DNA of 37,145 nt, taken from assembly GCA_017512905.1 (NCBI GenBank), contig JAFWEL010000123.1, positions 1-37,145 on the forward strand, read 5' to 3'. The stretch comes from Clostridia bacterium. GTDB taxonomy: Bacteria; Bacillota; Clostridia; Christensenellales; Aristaeellaceae. The stretch's first letter is position 1; the number at the start of each line of letters is the position of its first letter. This document shows positions 17,849 through 28,392 of this stretch, piece after piece. Position numbers and translations under genes: made by a program. Under the pieces are notes generated by a model. It did not search any database and was not told the DNA's origin. It saw only the letters and a program-made list of their open reading frames with translations.

Positions 17849-18261
17849 GTGAAGGAATAGACAATCGCGGCAAACCTTGAAAACACCGCGCCCGTCACGG
17901 CATTTATCTACGGGGAGCCGGACCGGAGACGTTGGACTGTTCAAAAAAGGCCCCGATGCAGATCGATGTGGCCATCAACGAGCTGTTCGGCAGCATGGCG
18001 CACTGTGCTTATCCGGAAGGGACGGGCTAAGCGACTGTGCGGTTTGACTTCGACGAGGCCACGCATATGGCGGGCATCACATTGGTCGACGGTGACGTAT
18101 CCCTCAATCCCCTGAGGAGGACCGACCTGGACGTGACCCATCCGCCCAGAGCAGGGGAGATGGGCGGTCTCGGGATACTCATGGCCCAAAAGACGATGGG
18201 CATGCTGAAATACGGCCATGAAAACGGCTTCAACATCCTGACCATACACAAGCGCATTTGA
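17849..18261 (+). pseudogene. RsbW-like anti-sigma serine kinase, decayed
   Basis: RsbW/SpoIIAB-type proteins are GHKL-fold kinases that phosphorylate STAS partners and hold sigma factors. Reading from GTG 17849 gives VKE, a TAG stop (17858-17860), then TIAANLENTAPVTAFIYGE in the same frame. A frameshift between about 17915 and 17931 is needed to continue with LDCSKKAPMQIDVAINELFG. A further TAA (18028-18030) splits PEGTG from ATVRFDFDEATH. The remainder reaches GGLGILMAQKTM and FNILTIHKRI before the true stop at 18259. Three independent lesions make it a clear pseudogene. The remaining order (N-box helix, G1-like DGDVSLNPL, G2-like GGLGIL) matches the family. The next gene begins 22 nt later. 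Confidence 0.88.
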
Positions 18262-18283: not shown

Positions 18284-21200
18284 GTGGGAAAGAGGACAAA
18301 TCATAGAGGAAGATGGATTTACGGTTTGGTTCTGTTTCTGGCGCTTATCATGTTGTTGGACATGGGCGTGGCGAGCGCGGACGGGACAAGCACCGTGGAT
18401 CCGGTGAACCAGCCCGAAAACTTCTCTGCGGTGCTGTATGACAACACCAACGGTCTGCCCACATCGGAGGCCAACGCCATCGTACAGACTTCGGAGGGCT
18501 TCATCTGGATCGGCAGCTATGGCGGACTGATTCGCTACGACGGCAATACCTTCGTGCGTATAGATTCCACCAGCGGCATCACCAGCATCAAGTGCCTGTA
18601 TGTGGACAATCAGGACCGCCTGTGGATCGGCACCAACGACAACGGCGTTGCGGTGCTGGAGAAAGGCGAGCTGCGCAAGTGGGGCAAGCTGGACGGCATG
18701 CTGTCGGCCCACATCCGCGCCATCACGGGAGATGATGGCGGCACCATCTACGTCGCCACGACCTGCGGCATCGCGATGATCGATCCGGACGGAAACCTGC
18801 GGATGATGGCGGATGAAGCCATTGCCGAGGCGAATATGCGCGATCTGCGGATGGGCAGCGACGGGATCATCTATGGCCTGACCAATTTCGGCGACCTGAT
18901 GAAGATCAGGGATGGCACGCTGATCAACTTCCTCAGTGCGGATGAAACCTCCGTGCAGGGCGTGGCCTCCATGCTCCCCGATCCGGTTGAGCCGGGCAAG
19001 CTCTGGTTTGAAGGCGGCGACTTCGGATTCTATCACGCGACTTACGGGGAAAAACTCACCGACCTGGAGTCGATCGACATTCAGCCCCTGAGCTCTGTGC
19101 AGCAGATGGAATACATCGAAGGCAGGTTGTGGATATGCGCCTCCCATGGCATCGGCGTGCTGACGGACGGCGGCATCCAGGTCCTGGAGGATTTGCCGAT
19201 GAACAACTCCATAGGCCACGTGATGCGGGATTACCTGGGCAACCTGTGGTTCACTTCCACCCGCCAGGGCGTGATGAAGGTGGTGCCCAACCAGTTTTCC
19301 GACTTGTTTGAGCGCTATGGCATGCCGACCCAGGTGGTGAATTCCACCTGTATGTGCGAAGACAAGCTGTTCGTCGCGACGGACGCCGGACTGATCGTGC
19401 TCGACGAAAACGGCCCGGTCTCCAGCCTCCCGCTGACAAAGGTCATGACCAACACCGGCGCGGCGTTTGAAGCGGATGTGGAGGCGGACGACCTGATCAG
19501 GCTGCTGGACGGCTGCCGGATCCGCTCCATCATCCGCGACAGCCAGGATCGGCTGTGGATTTCCACCTGGCGCAAGTACGGGCTGCTGCGCTACGCAAAG
19601 GGCGAGCTGACCGTGTTTGCCCAGGGAGACGGCCCGCTGTCCAACAGCATGCGCGCCGTCTGCGAGCGCAAGGACGGCACGATCCTCGTGGCGCTCACCG
19701 GCGGCGTGAACGTCATCGACGGCGACAGCATCGTCGCCTCCTACGGCGAGGCGGACGGCATCGTCAATACTGAGAGCCTCACCGTCGCGGAGGGCACGAA
19801 TGGCGACATCCTCCTCGGCTCCAACGGCGGCGGACTCTACATCATCAATGAATCCGGCGTGCGGAACATCAACGTCGAGGACGGGCTGCCCTCCGACATT
19901 GTGATGCGCCTCAAGCGCGACCCAAAGCGGGATCTGATCTGGATCGTCACCAGCAGCGCCATCGCCTACATGACGCCTGATTACCAGGTGACGACAGTTC
20001 AGAAGTTCCCCTACAGCAACAACTTCGATCTCTTCGAGAACAGCAAGGGCGACGTGTGGGTGCTTTCGAGCAACGGCATCTATGTGACACCGGCGGAGGA
20101 GCTTATCGCCAACGGTGAGATCAACCCCGTCTACTACAGCATCGCCAACGGCCTGCCCTGCATCACCACGGCAAATTCCTACAGCGAGTTGACCGGCGAG
20201 GGTGATCTGTACATCGCCGGAACCACCGGCATCTGCAAGGTCAACATCGACAAGCCCTTTGAGAATGTGGACGACCTGAAGGCGACGGTTCCCTTTGTGG
20301 AGGTGGACGGCCGGACGCTTTACCCCGAGGCGGACGGCGGGTTCACGATCCCCTCGAACACGCAGAAGCTGACTGTTTACAGCTATGTATTCAACTATGC
20401 GCTGAGCGACCCCCAGGTGAGCTACCGGCTGGAGGGCTTCGAGCGCGGCGACACGACGGTCAACCGCAGCGATATGGTGCCCGTGGATTACACCAACCTG
20501 CGCGGCGGCACCTATCATTATACGATGCAGCTGAAGGACTCCATGGGCCGGGGCGACCGGGAGGTGTCGGTACAGATCGTCAAGGAGAAGGCGTTCTACG
20601 AGCGGGCGTGGTTCTACATACTCGTGGGACTTGCGCTGATATTGCTGACCGCCCTGCTGGTGAAGCTGTATGTCGCCAGGAGAATGCGCGAACTGGAGGC
20701 CAAGCACCGCGAGGAGGCAAAGCGGGAGCGGCTCGAGAATGAACTGCAGCTGGCGACGAACATCCAGGCATCCGTGCTGCCCCACACCTTCCCGGCCTTC
20801 CCGGATCGGGACGAATTCGACATCTACGCCAGCATGACGCCCGCCAAGGAGGTCGGCGGCGATTTCTACGACTTCTTCCTGATCGATGACGATCACCTCG
20901 GCCTGGTCATGGCCGATGTCTCCGGCAAGGGCGTGCCCGCCGCGCTGTTCATGATGGTCTCCCGGGCGCTGATCCGGGCCCACCTGCAGAACGGTGAGAG
21001 CCCCGCCAAGGCGCTGGAGAACGCCAACGAACAGCTGTGCGAGGGGAATGAGGCGGAGCTGTTCGTCACCGTGTGGGCGGCCGTGCTGGACATCAGCACG
21101 GGCAAGGGCGTCGCCGCCAACGCCGGTCACGAGCATCCCGCGCTGCGCAGAGCGGATGGGGGATACGAGCTTCAGATCTACCGCCATTCGCCGGCCGTCG

Positions 21201-21487
21201 CCACGATGGAGGGCATGCGGTTCCGGGAGCACAGCTTCCAGCTCAATCCCGGCGACAGCCTGTTCGTCTACACGGACGGCGTGGCAGAGGCCACCAACGC
21301 CGAAAACGAGCTGTTTGGAAACGAACGGATGATCAAGGCCCTGAACTTCAATCCGGATGCGAAGCCGGAAGCGGTGCTGTCGAATGTCATGCATGGCATC
21401 GACGTCTTCGTCTCGAATGCGGAGCAGTTTGATGACATCACCATGCTGTGCCTGAAATACAACGGCCCCGCTGATCGCCGGGCATGA
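18284..21487 (+). CDS. Membrane sensor phosphatase: beta-propeller, Y_Y_Y and SpoIIE-type PP2C domains
   Basis: A 1067-aa RsbU/SpoIIE-like protein phosphatase expected to dephosphorylate a STAS partner. Order: signal peptide or anchor (about 11-32); an extracellular two-component-regulator propeller with many WIG/WFTS/WISTW blades (about 46-670); a Y_Y_Y domain (about 690-765, RLEGFERGDTT...); one membrane helix (about 772-797); a short charged coiled coil; and a PP2C domain (about 815-1060). Metal-binding acids are present: GGDFYDF D860, DVSGKG D878, YTDG D998 and FDD D1050/D1051. GTG 18284 is the start, with AGGAGGG (18267-18273) 10 nt upstream. The propeller outside and phosphatase inside imply sensing of an extracellular ligand, possibly a glycan as in Bacteroides hybrid sensors; the ligand is unknown. 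Confidence 0.92.
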   Translation: MGKRTNHRGRWIYGLVLFLALIMLLDMGVASADGTSTVDPVNQPENFSAVLYDNTNGLPTSEANAIVQTSEGFIWIGSYGGLIRYDGNTFVRIDSTSGITSIKCLYVDNQDRLWIGTNDNGVAVLEKGELRKWGKLDGMLSAHIRAITGDDGGTIYVATTCGIAMIDPDGNLRMMADEAIAEANMRDLRMGSDGIIYGLTNFGDLMKIRDGTLINFLSADETSVQGVASMLPDPVEPGKLWFEGGDFGFYHATYGEKLTDLESIDIQPLSSVQQMEYIEGRLWICASHGIGVLTDGGIQVLEDLPMNNSIGHVMRDYLGNLWFTSTRQGVMKVVPNQFSDLFERYGMPTQVVNSTCMCEDKLFVATDAGLIVLDENGPVSSLPLTKVMTNTGAAFEADVEADDLIRLLDGCRIRSIIRDSQDRLWISTWRKYGLLRYAKGELTVFAQGDGPLSNSMRAVCERKDGTILVALTGGVNVIDGDSIVASYGEADGIVNTESLTVAEGTNGDILLGSNGGGLYIINESGVRNINVEDGLPSDIVMRLKRDPKRDLIWIVTSSAIAYMTPDYQVTTVQKFPYSNNFDLFENSKGDVWVLSSNGIYVTPAEELIANGEINPVYYSIANGLPCITTANSYSELTGEGDLYIAGTTGICKVNIDKPFENVDDLKATVPFVEVDGRTLYPEADGGFTIPSNTQKLTVYSYVFNYALSDPQVSYRLEGFERGDTTVNRSDMVPVDYTNLRGGTYHYTMQLKDSMGRGDREVSVQIVKEKAFYERAWFYILVGLALILLTALLVKLYVARRMRELEAKHREEAKRERLENELQLATNIQASVLPHTFPAFPDRDEFDIYASMTPAKEVGGDFYDFFLIDDDHLGLVMADVSGKGVPAALFMMVSRALIRAHLQNGESPAKALENANEQLCEGNEAELFVTVWAAVLDISTGKGVAANAGHEHPALRRADGGYELQIYRHSPAVATMEGMRFREHSFQLNPGDSLFVYTDGVAEATNAENELFGNERMIKALNFNPDAKPEAVLSNVMHGIDVFVSNAEQFDDITMLCLKYNGPADRRA

Positions 21488-21571: not shown

Positions 21572-21886
21572 TTGACCATCACCAAGAACCTGAACGGAAG
21601 TACTCTGACAGTCGCTCTGGAGGGCCGCCTGGACACCACCACCGCGCCGGAACTGGAGCAGGCGCTGAAGGAGAGCATGGATGGCGTGAACGAACTGACG
21701 CTGGACTTTGCCAAACTGGACTACATCTCCTCGGCAGGCCTGCGCGTGTTGCTCTCGGCGCATAAGGCCATGAGCAAGAAGGGCGGAGGGTCCGCTCCCG
21801 GTGGCATGAAGGTCGTGAACGTCAACGAAACGGTCAAAGAAGTATTCGAGGTCACCGGCTTCGCCGACATCCTGAACATCGAATGA
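21572..21886 (+). CDS. STAS-domain anti-sigma factor antagonist (RsbV/SpoIIAA-like)
   Basis: A 104-aa single STAS domain. GRLDTTTAPELEQAL and DYISSAGLRVLLSAHKAM are diagnostic; Ser54 (or Ser53) in ISSAG is the expected phosphorylation site. Dephosphorylated forms bind RsbW-type kinases. A short Gly/Ser-rich insertion (SKKGGGSAPGG) precedes the last strand and helix. The start is TTG 21572, with AGGAGGG (21558-21564) 7 nt upstream. It follows the sensor phosphatase by 84 nt and is its likely substrate. The expected kinase, encoded upstream, is a pseudogene. Confidence 0.93.
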   Translation: MTITKNLNGSTLTVALEGRLDTTTAPELEQALKESMDGVNELTLDFAKLDYISSAGLRVLLSAHKAMSKKGGGSAPGGMKVVNVNETVKEVFEVTGFADILNIE

Positions 21887-22024: not shown

Positions 22025-25000
22025 ATGAAGCTGAACAAGCTGCTGGCCGTGCTGCTGTGCGCGGCATTGATGATGATGAGTCTGACCGGTTTTGCTTTTG
22101 CGGAAGCCGTGCCGGTTGAAGAACCATTTTCCCAATGGAACGCTGACGCCCCGGCATTGAACGCACTGACTGAATATGTGGAAGCTGTGACCGATCCCGA
22201 TTCGCCGGACTTCATCCCCGCGGCGGACCGCGTCGCCACCTTCGACATGGATGGCACATTGATTGGCGAGCTTTTTCCGACCTATCTGGAGGTCGTCCTG
22301 CTGACCGAGCGCATCCTGGGCGATCCCTCCTGGCAGCCGGACGAGGAGATGCTGGAATTTGGCCGTATGCTCCGCGACCATGCACTGGACAAATCCTTCC
22401 CGGATGATATGGACTACCAGTTTTCCCATCATCAGGCCAGGGCCTTCGCGGGCATGACGCTTCAGGAGTACACCGACTTCATCACCCGTGTGCTGGTGCG
22501 TGAGGTGGACGGCTTTACGGGCATGACCTATGCGGACGCCTACTACCAGCCGATGGCCGAGGTGGTGGAATACCTGCGGGACAACGGCTTCAAGTGCTAC
22601 ATCGTATCCGGCAGCGACCGCTTTATCGTTCGCACGTTCATGGAGGGCGCCTTGGACATTCCCGCCGACAACATCATCGGCTCCGATACCGCGCTGGCGG
22701 CCCGGAACCAGGGCGACGCGGATGGCATCGAGTACGTGTTCACCGGCGAGGACGAACTGGTGCGCACGGACAGGCTGCTCATCAAGGACCTCAAGACCAA
22801 CAAGGTCGTGCAGATTGCCCAGGAGATCGGCAAAAAGCCGGTGCTGTCCTTCGGCAACAGCTCCGGCGACGTGAGCATGAACAATTACGCCTTGTTGAAC
22901 AACCCCTATCGCAGCGCGGCCTTCATGCTGGTGGCGGACGACAATGCGCGCGATTACGGCAACCCGGACAACCACGACGGGCTGACCGAAAAATGGCAGG
23001 GCATGGGCTACAACGTGATTTCCATGCGGGACGACTGGAAGACGATCTATGGCGAGGATGTCGTCAAGACAGGCGAATTCCACTGGCTCTCGGATTACGC
23101 GGACAAGCCCGATGACGAAAGCGCCTCCACCGACTATACCCTCGAGCAGGTGGTCGTGCTGAGCCGCCACAACCTGCGTGCGCCGCTGTCCAGCAATGGC
23201 TCCGTGCCGAGCGACCTGACGCCCCACGAATGGATCAAATGGTCGGCGGGCTCCAGCGAGTTGACCCTGAAGGGCGGCATCGAGGAGACCTGCATGGGCC
23301 AGTACTTCCGCAAGTGGCTGGATCAGGAGGGGCTGATTCCCGAGAACACGGTTCCGGCTGAGGGCGAAATGCGCTTCAACGCCCGGGACAAGCAGCGCTG
23401 CCGCGCCACCGCCCGCTATTTTGCCGGGGGCATGCTGCCGCTGGCGGACATTGAAGTGGAGTACCCCGGCGATGCCAAAGGAACCGAGGACTTCATGCAG
23501 CCCGTACTGCACTTTTACAGCGACGACTATGCCGCCGACGCCATCGCCCAGGTCGCGGCCATGGGCGGCGACGCGGGCTTTGACGGCCTTGCCCGGCAGA
23601 ATCGGGATGTCATCGAGCTGATCATGGACACCGTCGATATGCAGGACAGCGAGATCTACCGGAGTGGCAAGTACGGCGATATACTGGCCAGCGACTATGG
23701 CTATGCGATGGAGCCGGACAAGGAGCCTGATCTCACCGGCGCGATCCGACCGGCCTATTCGGTGGCCGACGCGCTGCTGCTGCAATACTACGAGGAGCCT
23801 GACGCCGTCAAGGCCGCCTTCGGCCACGAGCTGACGGACGCGGACTGGGCGCGGCTGGGCGCGTTCATGACCACCTGCCTGGAGATAAAGCACGGCGCGC
23901 CCCTGGTGGCCGCCAACATCACCAACCCGCTGCTTCGGGAGCTGGAGAGCGAGCTTCGGAACGAGGATCGGAAGTTCAGCTTCTTCTGCGCCCACGATTG
24001 CACCGTACTCGGCGTCCTCTCCGCCCTGGGCGCGGAGGATTATTCCCTGCCGGAGAGCATCGAGACCAGGACGCCCATAGGCGTGAAGCTGGTGTTCGAG
24101 CGGCGGCGGGATGCCGAGGGTAAGGCGTGGTATCGCGTGAGCTTGATCTACCGCAGCACGGAGCAGATTCGCAGCGGCGAGATGCTGACGCTTCAAAATC
24201 CGCCCCTGCGCTACGACCTGCGCTTCGAGGGCGTGGAGACAAACGCGGATGGACTGATCGTCGAGGCGGACCTGTTTGCCCTGTTCGACCGCACCATCGC
24301 GGTGTTGGGTGAACTGGAGAAAAACTACGCGCCCAAGGAGGCCGCCGGGGAAGCGCTTTCCCAGTGGAACGCGGACGCCCCGGCGCTGAACGCGCTGATC
24401 GACTATGTGGGCGATGTGACCGATCCCGATTCCCCGGACTTCATTCCGCAGAAGGATCGTATAGCCGTTTTCGACCTGGATGGCACGCTGATGTGCGAGA
24501 CTGATCCCTTCTGCTTCGAATACATGGTCTTCGCGGATTACGCGCTGAATCACGCGGACGCGATGCCCGAGGATGTGCTGGCGGTCGCCCGGGAGATCGA
24601 GGATGCCGCCGGCAACGCCAAGCCGAGCGGCATGAGCACGCGCCAGGCCGCCGCGGCAGCCATCGCCTATAAGGGCATGACAATGGATGAAATGGCCCAG
24701 GTCGTCTCCGACTTCAAGGACAGCGAAGCCTGGGGCTTTACGGGTATGACGCGGGGCGAAGCCTGGTTCAGGCCGATGGTGGAGCTGGTTGAGATGTTGC
24801 AGGATAACGGCTTCGAGGTCTACGTCGTCACGGCGACCGAGCGCAATATCGTTCGGGAAATCGTCAACGGGACCCTGGATATTCCGCCGTCTCATGTCAT
24901 CGGTACGGAATACGGCTATGTAGCTACGAATCAGGGCGACGCGGCGGACGCGGATTATACGTTCCAAACCGAGGATCAGATCGTCTTCGATGGCAATTAC

Positions 25001-25303
25001 TACGGTGAGAACGCCAAGACCAGCAAGGTGGACGCCATTGTACGCGAGATTGGACAACAGCCGGTGCTGGCGTTCGGCAATTCCTCTGGCGATCTGGCCA
25101 TGGAAATCTATACCATTTCCAACAATCCTTACAGGAGCGCGGCATATATGGTGGTCGCGGACGATGGGGAGCGGGAGTACGGAAACGCGGACGGCGCCGC
25201 CGAAAAGAAATCAGACTACGAGAGCATGGGCATCGGCGTCATCTCCATGCGGGATGATTTCGCGACCATCTTCGGCGACGGCGTGGAAAAGGCGGAACAC
25301 TGA
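22025..25303 (+). CDS. Secreted triple phosphatase: HAD, histidine acid phosphatase, HAD
   Basis: A 1092-aa exported protein. A signal peptide (residues 1-26, ending FAFA) is followed by three phosphatase domains. HAD 1 (about 36-355) has the nucleophile motif FDMDGT (D74, D76), the motif-II segment YIVSGSD and SFGNSSGD. A histidine-type acid phosphatase (about 370-765) has RHNLRAP (R381, H382) and the proton-donor motif AHD (H657, D658), as in phytase/glucose-1-phosphatase enzymes. HAD 2 (about 779-1090) has FDLDGT (D817, D819) and AFGNSSGD. The two HAD copies share the lead-in SQWNADAPALNAL at 36 and 779, exactly 743 residues apart, showing an internal duplication. All catalytic residues look intact. 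GAGGAGG is about 8 nt before the ATG. Likely role: scavenging phosphate from extracellular phosphoesters. It lies downstream of the STAS gene. Confidence 0.9.
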   Translation: MKLNKLLAVLLCAALMMMSLTGFAFAEAVPVEEPFSQWNADAPALNALTEYVEAVTDPDSPDFIPAADRVATFDMDGTLIGELFPTYLEVVLLTERILGDPSWQPDEEMLEFGRMLRDHALDKSFPDDMDYQFSHHQARAFAGMTLQEYTDFITRVLVREVDGFTGMTYADAYYQPMAEVVEYLRDNGFKCYIVSGSDRFIVRTFMEGALDIPADNIIGSDTALAARNQGDADGIEYVFTGEDELVRTDRLLIKDLKTNKVVQIAQEIGKKPVLSFGNSSGDVSMNNYALLNNPYRSAAFMLVADDNARDYGNPDNHDGLTEKWQGMGYNVISMRDDWKTIYGEDVVKTGEFHWLSDYADKPDDESASTDYTLEQVVVLSRHNLRAPLSSNGSVPSDLTPHEWIKWSAGSSELTLKGGIEETCMGQYFRKWLDQEGLIPENTVPAEGEMRFNARDKQRCRATARYFAGGMLPLADIEVEYPGDAKGTEDFMQPVLHFYSDDYAADAIAQVAAMGGDAGFDGLARQNRDVIELIMDTVDMQDSEIYRSGKYGDILASDYGYAMEPDKEPDLTGAIRPAYSVADALLLQYYEEPDAVKAAFGHELTDADWARLGAFMTTCLEIKHGAPLVAANITNPLLRELESELRNEDRKFSFFCAHDCTVLGVLSALGAEDYSLPESIETRTPIGVKLVFERRRDAEGKAWYRVSLIYRSTEQIRSGEMLTLQNPPLRYDLRFEGVETNADGLIVEADLFALFDRTIAVLGELEKNYAPKEAAGEALSQWNADAPALNALIDYVGDVTDPDSPDFIPQKDRIAVFDLDGTLMCETDPFCFEYMVFADYALNHADAMPEDVLAVAREIEDAAGNAKPSGMSTRQAAAAAIAYKGMTMDEMAQVVSDFKDSEAWGFTGMTRGEAWFRPMVELVEMLQDNGFEVYVVTATERNIVREIVNGTLDIPPSHVIGTEYGYVATNQGDAADADYTFQTEDQIVFDGNYYGENAKTSKVDAIVREIGQQPVLAFGNSSGDLAMEIYTISNNPYRSAAYMVVADDGEREYGNADGAAEKKSDYESMGIGVISMRDDFATIFGDGVEKAEH

Positions 25304-26620: not shown

Positions 26621-27715
26621 TCACAGCTTGATGGTGATACGATTCCGGCTGTCTGTGTAGTGATAATCCAACTGTCTGGACGTGTTTTTCAGGATCGTCA
26701 CGCTCAGGCTGTCCTCCTCCTGCTCAAAGGGGTTGTAGCTCGCGCCGCCGCAGTCGACGTCGATCTGTGTCGTGCCATCCAATTCTGCGTGAGATATCGA
26801 CACGTTCATGTTGACGTCCTTCCGGTTGGGATAGCAGTGGTCCAGCATTTCATAGATCAACTCCTCGCAGCACATCTGTAGACGGTAGGTGTGCCTCTGA
26901 TCCAGGCCGTATTTCTCGCCGAAGTTCTGTATGCCGCCCTGGAGCTGCATCAGGTCGAAATCCCGATGGGTGATCTCATAGCTGAAATACTTGATCTTGT
27001 GGATGAAGGACACGGTCTTTTCCCGCTTTGGCGCGTCGAAGATCTCCTTGGGCGTACCCTGCTCATAGATGCCACCGTCGGCGAAGAAAAGCACGCGCTG
27101 TGCGACCTCGCGGGCGAAGTTCATCTCGTGGGTTACGATCAGCATGCCCAGATCCCGCTTGGCCAGCATCCGGATCACGGCCAGCACCTCGCCCACCATC
27201 GTGGGGTCGAGGGCGCTGGTGGGCTCATCGAACAGCAGCACCTTCGGTTCCATCATCAGGCAGCGGCAGATCGCGATGCGCTGCTGCTGGCCGCCGGAGA
27301 GCACTGTGGGCCAGGCATGTGCGCGGGATGAGAGGCCCACCTGGCGAAGCAGCTCCATGGCTTTCTCTTCCGCCTGTTCCCGGGGCATTTTGAGGATGCG
27401 CGTCGGCGCCAGGCACAGGTTGTCCATCACGTCCATCTCGGAAAACAGGTGGAACTTCTGGAACACCATGCCCGTGCTGCGGCGAATCTCGTCCACCCTG
27501 GCGCCCTTCGCGGTGATCTCCTTTCCGTCGATGAACACCTGACCCGCGTCCGGCTTTTCCAGCAGGCACAGCGAACGCAGGAACACGCTTTTGCCGCAGC
27601 CTGACCCGCCGATGATGGCAATGCGTTCGCCCTGTTCCACCGTCAGATCAATGCCCTTCAACACATCCAGCGAACCGAAGGACTTCTTCAGGCCCTTCAC
27701 TTCGATCAGGCTCAT
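26621..27715 (-). CDS. Amino-acid ABC transporter ATPase fused to an RsbW-like domain
   Basis: Residues 1-240 are a GlnQ/HisP-type ATPase: Walker A GGSGCGKS (36-43), signature LSGGQ (139-143), Walker B with D163/E164, and switch His196. Family members normally end near residue 240-245; this one continues to 364. The extra 120 residues resemble the GHKL fold of RsbW/SpoIIAB: a helix EELIYEMLDHCYP (284-296) in the N-box position and DCGGASYNPF (321-330) as the G1 box, then a last strand NRITIKL. The N-box Asn is replaced by Glu289 and no G2 glycine loop is seen, so the domain may bind a partner without being an active kinase. It overlaps the permease stop by 4 nt (ATGA) and is co-transcribed with it. 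Confidence 0.88.
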   Translation of the reverse strand: MSLIEVKGLKKSFGSLDVLKGIDLTVEQGERIAIIGGSGCGKSVFLRSLCLLEKPDAGQVFIDGKEITAKGARVDEIRRSTGMVFQKFHLFSEMDVMDNLCLAPTRILKMPREQAEEKAMELLRQVGLSSRAHAWPTVLSGGQQQRIAICRCLMMEPKVLLFDEPTSALDPTMVGEVLAVIRMLAKRDLGMLIVTHEMNFAREVAQRVLFFADGGIYEQGTPKEIFDAPKREKTVSFIHKIKYFSYEITHRDFDLMQLQGGIQNFGEKYGLDQRHTYRLQMCCEELIYEMLDHCYPNRKDVNMNVSISHAELDGTTQIDVDCGGASYNPFEQEEDSLSVTILKNTSRQLDYHYTDSRNRITIKL

Positions 27716-28392
27716 GCCGCTTCACCCCGCTTTCTCTGCTTGAGCCTGTCCGACAGCGCGAACAGGCCGAACACGATGTAGGACAGGGCGAGGTAAATCA
27801 GCATGCCAATGATGATGGTCAACAGCGGCTGCATGGTCCTGGAGGCGGTGTTATTGATGACCCGGGTTAAATCTGTGATGGTCACGTAGCCCACCACGCT
27901 GGTCCACTGGATGAGGTTCACGATGGTGGACTGGTAAACCGGCTTGGCGATGCGCAACACCTGGGGCAGCGTGACGAGGCGGAAGGTGTCCCAGGCGGAA
28001 AACCCCAGCGTTCGCGCGGCCTCGGCCTGTCCGTGGTCGGCGGCATCCAGTGCCGAGCGCAACAGCTCGGCCACGTGGGCGGAGACGTTCAGTGAAAAGG
28101 TGATTACCGCCACCATGACCGGCGCGATCTTCACCCGCGCGAGCACGCCGTAGTACAGCAAAAGCAGCAGCATCAATACCGGCGTACCCCGCAGCACTGC
28201 GATGTATACCGAGGCGATGCCCCGAATGACGGGATTCTTCCTCGTGCGCAAAAAACAGATCAAAGCTCCGAGTAAAGTGCCAAACAGCAGAGACAGAGCG
28301 GAAATCTGAAGGGTGACCCAAAGGCCGCCCAGGATGGTCTTCCAGGAGTCGCCCTTTATGAGAATTGTGTAAAGCTTGTCTGATAGCGTCAT
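27712..28392 (-). CDS. Amino-acid ABC transporter permease (HisM/GlnP type)
   Basis: A 226-aa polar-amino-acid permease with about five membrane helices. The EAA loop that docks on the ATPase is clear (EAARTLGFSAWDTFRLVTLPQ, residues about 123-143). GTPVLMLLLLLYYG and SLNVSAHVAELLRSAL are typical of the His/Glu/Gln/Arg group. AAGGAG (28400-28405) is 7 nt before the ATG at 28392. It is the first gene of the permease-ATPase-binding protein operon. Only one permease is present, so the channel is probably a homodimer. Confidence 0.93.
   Translation of the reverse strand: MTLSDKLYTILIKGDSWKTILGGLWVTLQISALSLLFGTLLGALICFLRTRKNPVIRGIASVYIAVLRGTPVLMLLLLLYYGVLARVKIAPVMVAVITFSLNVSAHVAELLRSALDAADHGQAEAARTLGFSAWDTFRLVTLPQVLRIAKPVYQSTIVNLIQWTSVVGYVTITDLTRVINNTASRTMQPLLTIIIGMLIYLALSYIVFGLFALSDRLKQRKRGEAA

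Follow-up and report, generated by a model that had tools for sequence, protein, structure and literature searches.

The transporter locus and its neighbours

The window analysed here is a stretch of 37,145 nucleotides from a member of the Clostridia. A 364-residue open reading frame on its minus strand (27715-26621) encodes an ABC transporter ATPase with an RsbW-derived C-terminal domain that looks pseudokinase-like, an assignment based on the reading frame, Pfam, relatives and profile comparison; stop codons interrupt the plus-strand frame of the same span. The GlnQ-type ATPase domain occupies residues 1-240 (26996..27715, minus strand). ABC_tran matches residues 19-167 (E = 1.6e-36, Pfam scan), and pattern searches located the Walker A motif (residue 36), LSGGQ (139), the D-loop (167) and the H-switch (195); the Walker B motif, VLLFDEP, gave no match in the pattern search and was recognised by eye. 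All five motifs, together with the neighbouring permease and solute-binding protein, characterise the ATPase of an amino-acid-type ABC importer. As expected for GlnQ/TcyN-type importers, residues 1-241 match the NCBIfam models for these ATPases and a permease and a family-3 binding protein lie alongside the gene. In contrast to such importers, the matches stay below the model cut-offs (among 25 of 196 models listed), the ATPase carries a tail of 120 residues and the adjoining binding protein is circularly permuted. The first-pass annotation of this DNA had described a complete GlnQ-type ATPase followed by about 120 extra residues, and the domain match and motif set agree with both points; the tail corresponds approximately to residues 241-364 (26624..26995, minus strand).

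The permease of the same importer (BPD_transp_1 in Pfam; 27712..28392, minus strand) is encoded directly before the ATPase in most relatives, as it is here. The window operon runs on the minus strand from the permease (28392-27712) through the tailed ABC ATPase (27715-26621) to a circularly permuted family-3 solute-binding protein (26505-25630), identified from Pfam and from its order relative to solved binding proteins. Genes of the partner-switch type are located on the plus strand. A STAS protein of the anti-sigma-antagonist type (21572..21886; STAS 7.5e-16, TIGR00377 4.5e-20), a candidate partner of the tail, is encoded about 4.7 kb from the ATPase gene, on the opposite strand and outside the transporter operon. 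A SpoIIE phosphatase with a Reg_prop sensor region (18284..21487; SpoIIE 7.6e-48, Reg_prop 2.2e-22) is directly preceded by a stand-alone RsbW-type gene, recognised by sequence comparison, that is broken by an in-frame stop (17935..18249). An unbroken STAS-RsbW-SpoIIE trio is found elsewhere in the same genome (contig C117, locus L120), and the whole genome holds six SpoIIE and seven STAS matches. The plus strand also encodes a protein of 1092 residues with HAD and histidine-phosphatase domains (22025-25303), relatives of which are present at 3 of the 80 group A loci introduced below.

Homology of the tail and the state of its nucleotide site

Taken by itself, the window tail makes a weak case for HATPase_c_2 (PF13581), because its Pfam match (E = 0.0019, 18.6 bits) lies below the curated cut-off of 27.4; its relatives decide the question. 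Sixty-six tails were aligned, that of the window plus 65 taken from the 80 group A loci (the remaining 15 were omitted untested); HATPase_c_2 matches 64 of these tails at E up to 0.1, the best at 4.1e-8. The tail profile was compared with 12 RsbW, SpoIIAB and MATE-fused domains using hhalign, scoring 98.9% over 104 columns (E = 1.3e-17 for this single comparison) and 98.5% in a rerun. Against the seven stand-alone or SpoIIE-fused RsbW/SpoIIAB rows only, the score was 97.5%, and against the five MATE tails 97.2%. The controls gave 0.3% for the reversed profile, at most 2.1% for 20 column shuffles and at most 2.6% for unrelated STAS, SpoIIE, permease and solute-binding protein profiles. On the strength of these sequence comparisons, the tail is a descendant of an RsbW/SpoIIAB (HATPase_c_2) domain, as the first-pass annotation had supposed from the order of the motifs.

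Importer ATPases of the ABC type can likewise end in a regulatory domain of the NIL or ACT family, both of which the first-pass annotation had named as examples of a known alternative. The present tail differs from them: neither family appears in Pfam scans of the window tail (E up to 1) or of the 66 tails (E up to 0.1), and this identity is rejected. NCBIfam gave nothing for the tail, and searches of the sequences of solved structures with the tail returned no meaningful match, the chance-level ones including dihydroneopterin aldolase and Eyes absent. A defence-system reading was also rejected; the best stretches of the PADLOC matches all fall within the ATPase region.

The profile alignment of the 66 tails shows which residues of the nucleotide site are lost and which are kept. 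In the N-box helix (residues 284-296; 26828..26866, minus strand) the catalytic-type Glu285 is present in 66/66 tails. The N-box Asn is absent from all of them, its position being taken by Glu in 56, Asp in six, Ala in two and Val in two; the replacement by Glu289 proposed for the window copy stands in the register of the hhalign alignment. In the G1 remnant (residues 321-330; 26726..26755, minus strand) Gly324 is retained in every tail and, once the register is corrected, the Asp position is Cys322 in the window, with Asp in 0/66. In the G1-like DCGGASYNPF of the first pass, the Asp position is at Cys322 and not at Asp321. Its claim that the G2 loop is missing does not hold for the family: 56 of the 66 tails retain the Gly of LGVTI in the G2 remnant (residues 336-343; 26687..26710, minus strand), where the window copy has Ser338. 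In the hhalign alignment the ATP lid is shortened, and G1 and G2 are separated by a short stretch. Across group A the motif FDLM..QGG..F.EKYG is nearly invariant, and 11 columns are invariant across the 66 tails, which come from several phyla. The more diverged tails of group B (n = 20) have the Glu in 20/20, the Asn in 1/20 and the Asp in 1/20; both of the latter occur in L184, the first branch within group B, weakly supported and long (87/31).

Compared with the RsbW/SpoIIAB anti-sigma kinases (PF13581), the tail is thus a homologous domain that retains the Glu and Gly of the pocket. It differs from them in the missing N-box Asn and G1 Asp, in the short ATP lid and in its fusion to an ABC ATPase; in addition, no sigma-factor family was listed among 30 proteins scanned in and around four tail-bearing loci (L186, L202, L096, L093). 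With both residues lost and the lid short, nucleotide binding by the tail appears unlikely, and the domain looks like a pseudokinase. The earlier suggestion of a binding domain or pseudokinase fits these data, as the nucleotide-site residues are lost within a tail of RsbW-like descent. The invariant columns indicate purifying selection, and the fixed loss of the Asn and Asp, while Glu285, Gly324 and FDLM..QGG persist, is the pattern expected of a domain retained for protein binding.

Relatives of the tail and adjoining partner-switch genes

The first-pass annotation had proposed a search for further ABC ATPases bearing such a tail, and these exist in numbers. A tail search gave matches in 39 of 200 genomes of the family (the genome of the window included), MATE-type and other fusions among them, and a survey of the phylum with the tail profile gave matches in 13 of 398 genomes (again including its own), some in frames other than ABC-size. 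Group A consists of the best 80 of 97 loci from a scan of named genomes, with records from Butyrivibrio strains, Candidatus Formimonas warabiya strain DCMF (complete genome) and Selenomonadaceae, and further ones from Synergistota, Treponema and Chloroflexota MAGs (MAG labels as given). Group B is a second, more diverged set of tails; 19 of its 20 loci, all but L184, encode the permease and the binding proteins as a single chain. Among the matches listed in 42 genomes, selected because they contain a tail, each of the 44 ATPases sharing 69% identity or more with that of the window is encoded by a frame of 364 residues or longer, and the closest ATPase of tail-less size is 56% identical.

A tree was built from 89 ATPase domains, with 28 of the 80 group A loci represented; in it, groups A and B fall on one side of a branch with support of 96/70, below the firm-support mark of the programme. 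Group A itself is recovered at 100/99, and the 40 tail-less controls form one group at 71/20. L194, a group B row in which no tail was detected, falls inside group B; L196_Bno is a mis-picked long-branch outlier. The tree is compatible with a single fusion event without proving one, and on this sequence evidence the tail and the ATPase were probably joined once.

Several loci depart from the usual arrangement. Permease, ABC ATPase and RsbW-like tail form one chain in L020, L022, L024 and L034, of which L024 alone had its ABC and permease domains confirmed by Pfam. In L045 (11388-11729) a second, detached tail-like fragment, with no Pfam match, lies among binding-protein genes downstream of the ABC-tail gene. 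In L097 (9420-13497) the order is STAS, a short permease piece, a tail with most of the ATPase missing, a solute-binding protein, RsbW and SpoIIE; here the ATPase core seems to have been deleted, the frame of the tail still being open.

Circular permutation, with the C-half before the N-half, predominates among the solute-binding proteins of tail-bearing loci and is also seen in the window protein when set against solved binding proteins. Of 130 such proteins in group A, a set that includes some genes outside the operon, 77 are clearly permuted, three are colinear, five have one half only and 45 were scored as 'other'; four examples of the last class show the C-half before the N-half after a short N-terminal match. 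In group B 19/21 are clearly permuted. The control proteins are colinear in 31/34 cases, partly by construction since the profile was built from control proteins; one was scored as permuted and two as 'other' with the same order (L153, L154, L176), so permutation extends beyond the tail-bearing systems. Group B permeases carry stacks of such permuted units as fusions, up to four of them in L196. In several of the loci L088-L117 (Selenomonadaceae, Synergistota), binding-protein genes stand in a row before one permease and one tail-bearing ATPase, with up to seven binding-protein pieces in L113.

The first pass had also suggested looking for STAS genes near other ABC ATPases with this tail, and STAS, RsbW or SpoIIE genes do lie near some of them. 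Neighbours were counted with profiles built from matches pooled over all loci and seeded with the proteins of the window itself. The 80 group A loci (27 of them under 11 kb; 1.130 Mb in total) contain 8 STAS, 12 SpoIIE and 5 RsbW genes, at least one of these being present in 14 loci. The 20 group B loci (0.347 Mb) contain 5, 2 and 3, respectively, spread over 6 loci, and 40 tail-less control loci (0.720 Mb) contain 1, 1 and 0, in 2 loci. The controls come from the same genome set as the tail-bearing loci; controls and group B were chosen by frame length from the upper part of the ATPase match list, not at random. At the level of loci the comparison is 20/100 tail-bearing against 2/40 tail-less (Fisher p = 0.038); group A by itself, at 14/80 against 2/40, is not significant (p = 0.086). 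Splits chosen afterwards gave 18/71 against 2/39 for loci of at least 11 kb (p = 0.009) and 15/55 against 1/31 for loci of at least 15 kb (p = 0.008). Counted as genes, the rates are 35 in 1.478 Mb and 2 in 0.720 Mb (p = 1.4e-4), or 33 against 2 when fused genes are counted once (p = 2.1e-4). When genes on one strand were joined into runs across gaps of no more than 300 bp, the run included a partner-switch gene at 9/100 tail-bearing loci (L041, L057, L077, L079, L092, L093, L096, L104 and L186) and at 0/40 controls (p = 0.060).

A background density was taken from 42 genomes, with 279 SpoIIE and 266 STAS matches in 131.3 Mb. A count on 44 loci (12 SpoIIE against 1.76 expected, 8 STAS against 1.67) used loci picked after their neighbours had been seen, all ten SpoIIE-bearing ones included, and for this reason the density was recounted on all 80 group A loci. 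In that recount there are 12 SpoIIE against 2.40 expected (p = 8.5e-6) and 8 STAS against 2.29 (p = 0.0025); the controls have 1 SpoIIE against 1.53 expected and 1 STAS against 1.46. As the loci are related, all of these p values are optimistic and overstate independence. The excess of partner-switch genes at tail-bearing loci is moderate, and 80 of the 100 loci have no such gene within the available stretch.

Two layouts bring the genes closest together. Strain DCMF of Candidatus Formimonas warabiya, whose genome is complete, has STAS, RsbW, a fused solute-binding protein-permease and the ABC-tail gene in direct succession on the same strand (L186). In L104/L202 one strand carries two STAS genes, some unrelated genes, SpoIIE-RsbW, STAS-APH, three solute-binding protein genes, the permease and the ABC-tail gene. 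Each of the 13 STAS proteins detected in the two groups has the motif SSAG, which holds the phosphorylated Ser.

A possible docking domain for STAS proteins

As the best joint explanation we propose that the tail is a STAS docking domain which makes the importer a target of a partner switch, a reading to which we give about an even chance. An RsbW/SpoIIAB-type domain, fused C-terminally to an amino-acid-type importer ATPase, has by the evidence of the sequences lost its Mg-ATP-binding residues, and the tail would now most likely act as a docking site for STAS proteins. A sensor-bearing SpoIIE phosphatase would dephosphorylate the STAS protein, the unphosphorylated form would bind the tail and alter the ATPase or the ATPase dimer, and a true RsbW kinase would phosphorylate the STAS protein and thereby release it from the tail. 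If so, the importer itself would be the output of the switch, and no sigma factor would be required. As importer genes adjoin the remaining switch genes in some bacteria, uptake may be under partner-switch control there. In the window itself, the position of the switch genes on the other strand and the broken state of their kinase gene count against docking. We put forward more tentatively a wider scheme in which a membrane importer, and not a sigma factor, is the direct output of the switch. RsbW-derived pseudokinase domains on the ATPase would sense whether STAS proteins are phosphorylated, and stacked, circularly permuted binding proteins would supply the same complex, making import and signalling one device in several phyla.

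The closest precedent is the STAS protein MlaB, which binds the ABC ATPase MlaF (PMC7367683). There, as is proposed here, an ABC ATPase is controlled by a STAS-fold protein and a C-terminal extension of the ATPase matters; in contrast, MlaB contacts the body of the ATPase, and the extension of MlaF is only about 25 residues long (PMC7367683). The present tail is a whole RsbW-type domain on an amino-acid-type importer, to which a STAS protein would bind.

Other roles of the tail have to be weighed against STAS docking. RsbW-type domains pair up, and a pair of tails could stabilise the ATPase dimer; in other importers, C-terminal domains sense intracellular ligands. The tail could accordingly serve self-dimerisation or stability of the ATPase, or sense a ligand in the old nucleotide pocket, with STAS proteins unneeded. 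The 80 loci free of partner-switch genes, the occurrence of the tail on permease-ATPase fusions and the invariance of the pocket residues Glu285 and Gly324 in group A all suit this reading. We nevertheless consider it rather unlikely: it leaves the SpoIIE/STAS excess and the layouts of L186 and L104/L202 unexplained, and the pocket has lost its G1 Asp and N-box Asn. It is also conceivable that the tail and a true RsbW kinase form a heterodimer of pseudokinase and kinase, which would place the kinase at the transporter; the state of transport would then alter STAS phosphorylation, the importer being input and not output. RsbW genes at 5/80 group A, 3/20 group B and 0/40 control loci point this way, as does the sensor-like look of several binding-protein genes (up to seven pieces) ahead of one permease, whereas L092 and L079 have STAS and no RsbW in the available stretch (for L092 about 1 kb upstream only); we regard this arrangement as improbable.

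The remaining two alternatives address the state of the domain itself. That the tail is an active serine kinase phosphorylating STAS proteins would accord with the catalytic-type Glu285 in 66/66 tails; the N-box Asn and G1 Asp, at 0/66 each in group A and 1/20 each in group B, and the shortened lid make this highly improbable, and we reject it. Decay of a functionless fusion remnant, to which the departure of the window copy from most of its kin at the G2 Gly (Ser338) might be attributed, is if anything less credible still, given the 11 invariant columns of the 66 tails from several phyla and the full-length frames of all 44 listed ATPases at 69% identity or more, albeit from genomes chosen for the tail.

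Post-translational regulation of ABC transporters is poorly known according to the authors of PMC7367683, to whom the structure archive yielded no further pair of STAS protein and ABC ATPase. Should STAS proteins bind the tail, nutrient uptake would be gated directly by a switch known from the control of sigma factors. Even without this mechanism, it is unusual for an importer ATPase to be joined to a conserved, RsbW-derived and pseudokinase-like domain. We did not find an RsbW-tailed importer ATPase in the open-licence PMC literature, searched mostly with narrow term combinations, and an earlier description elsewhere is possible.

HATPase_c_2 domains also end transporters of another class. 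L029, L030, L031, L033 and L036 encode transporters of the MATE type whose C-terminal part is a HATPase_c_2 domain; Pfam confirmed both MatE and HATPase_c_2 in all three that were tested out of these five. Unlike the ABC tails, the MATE-fused domains retain the N-box Asn in 5/5 aligned sequences, and may for this reason still bind nucleotide.
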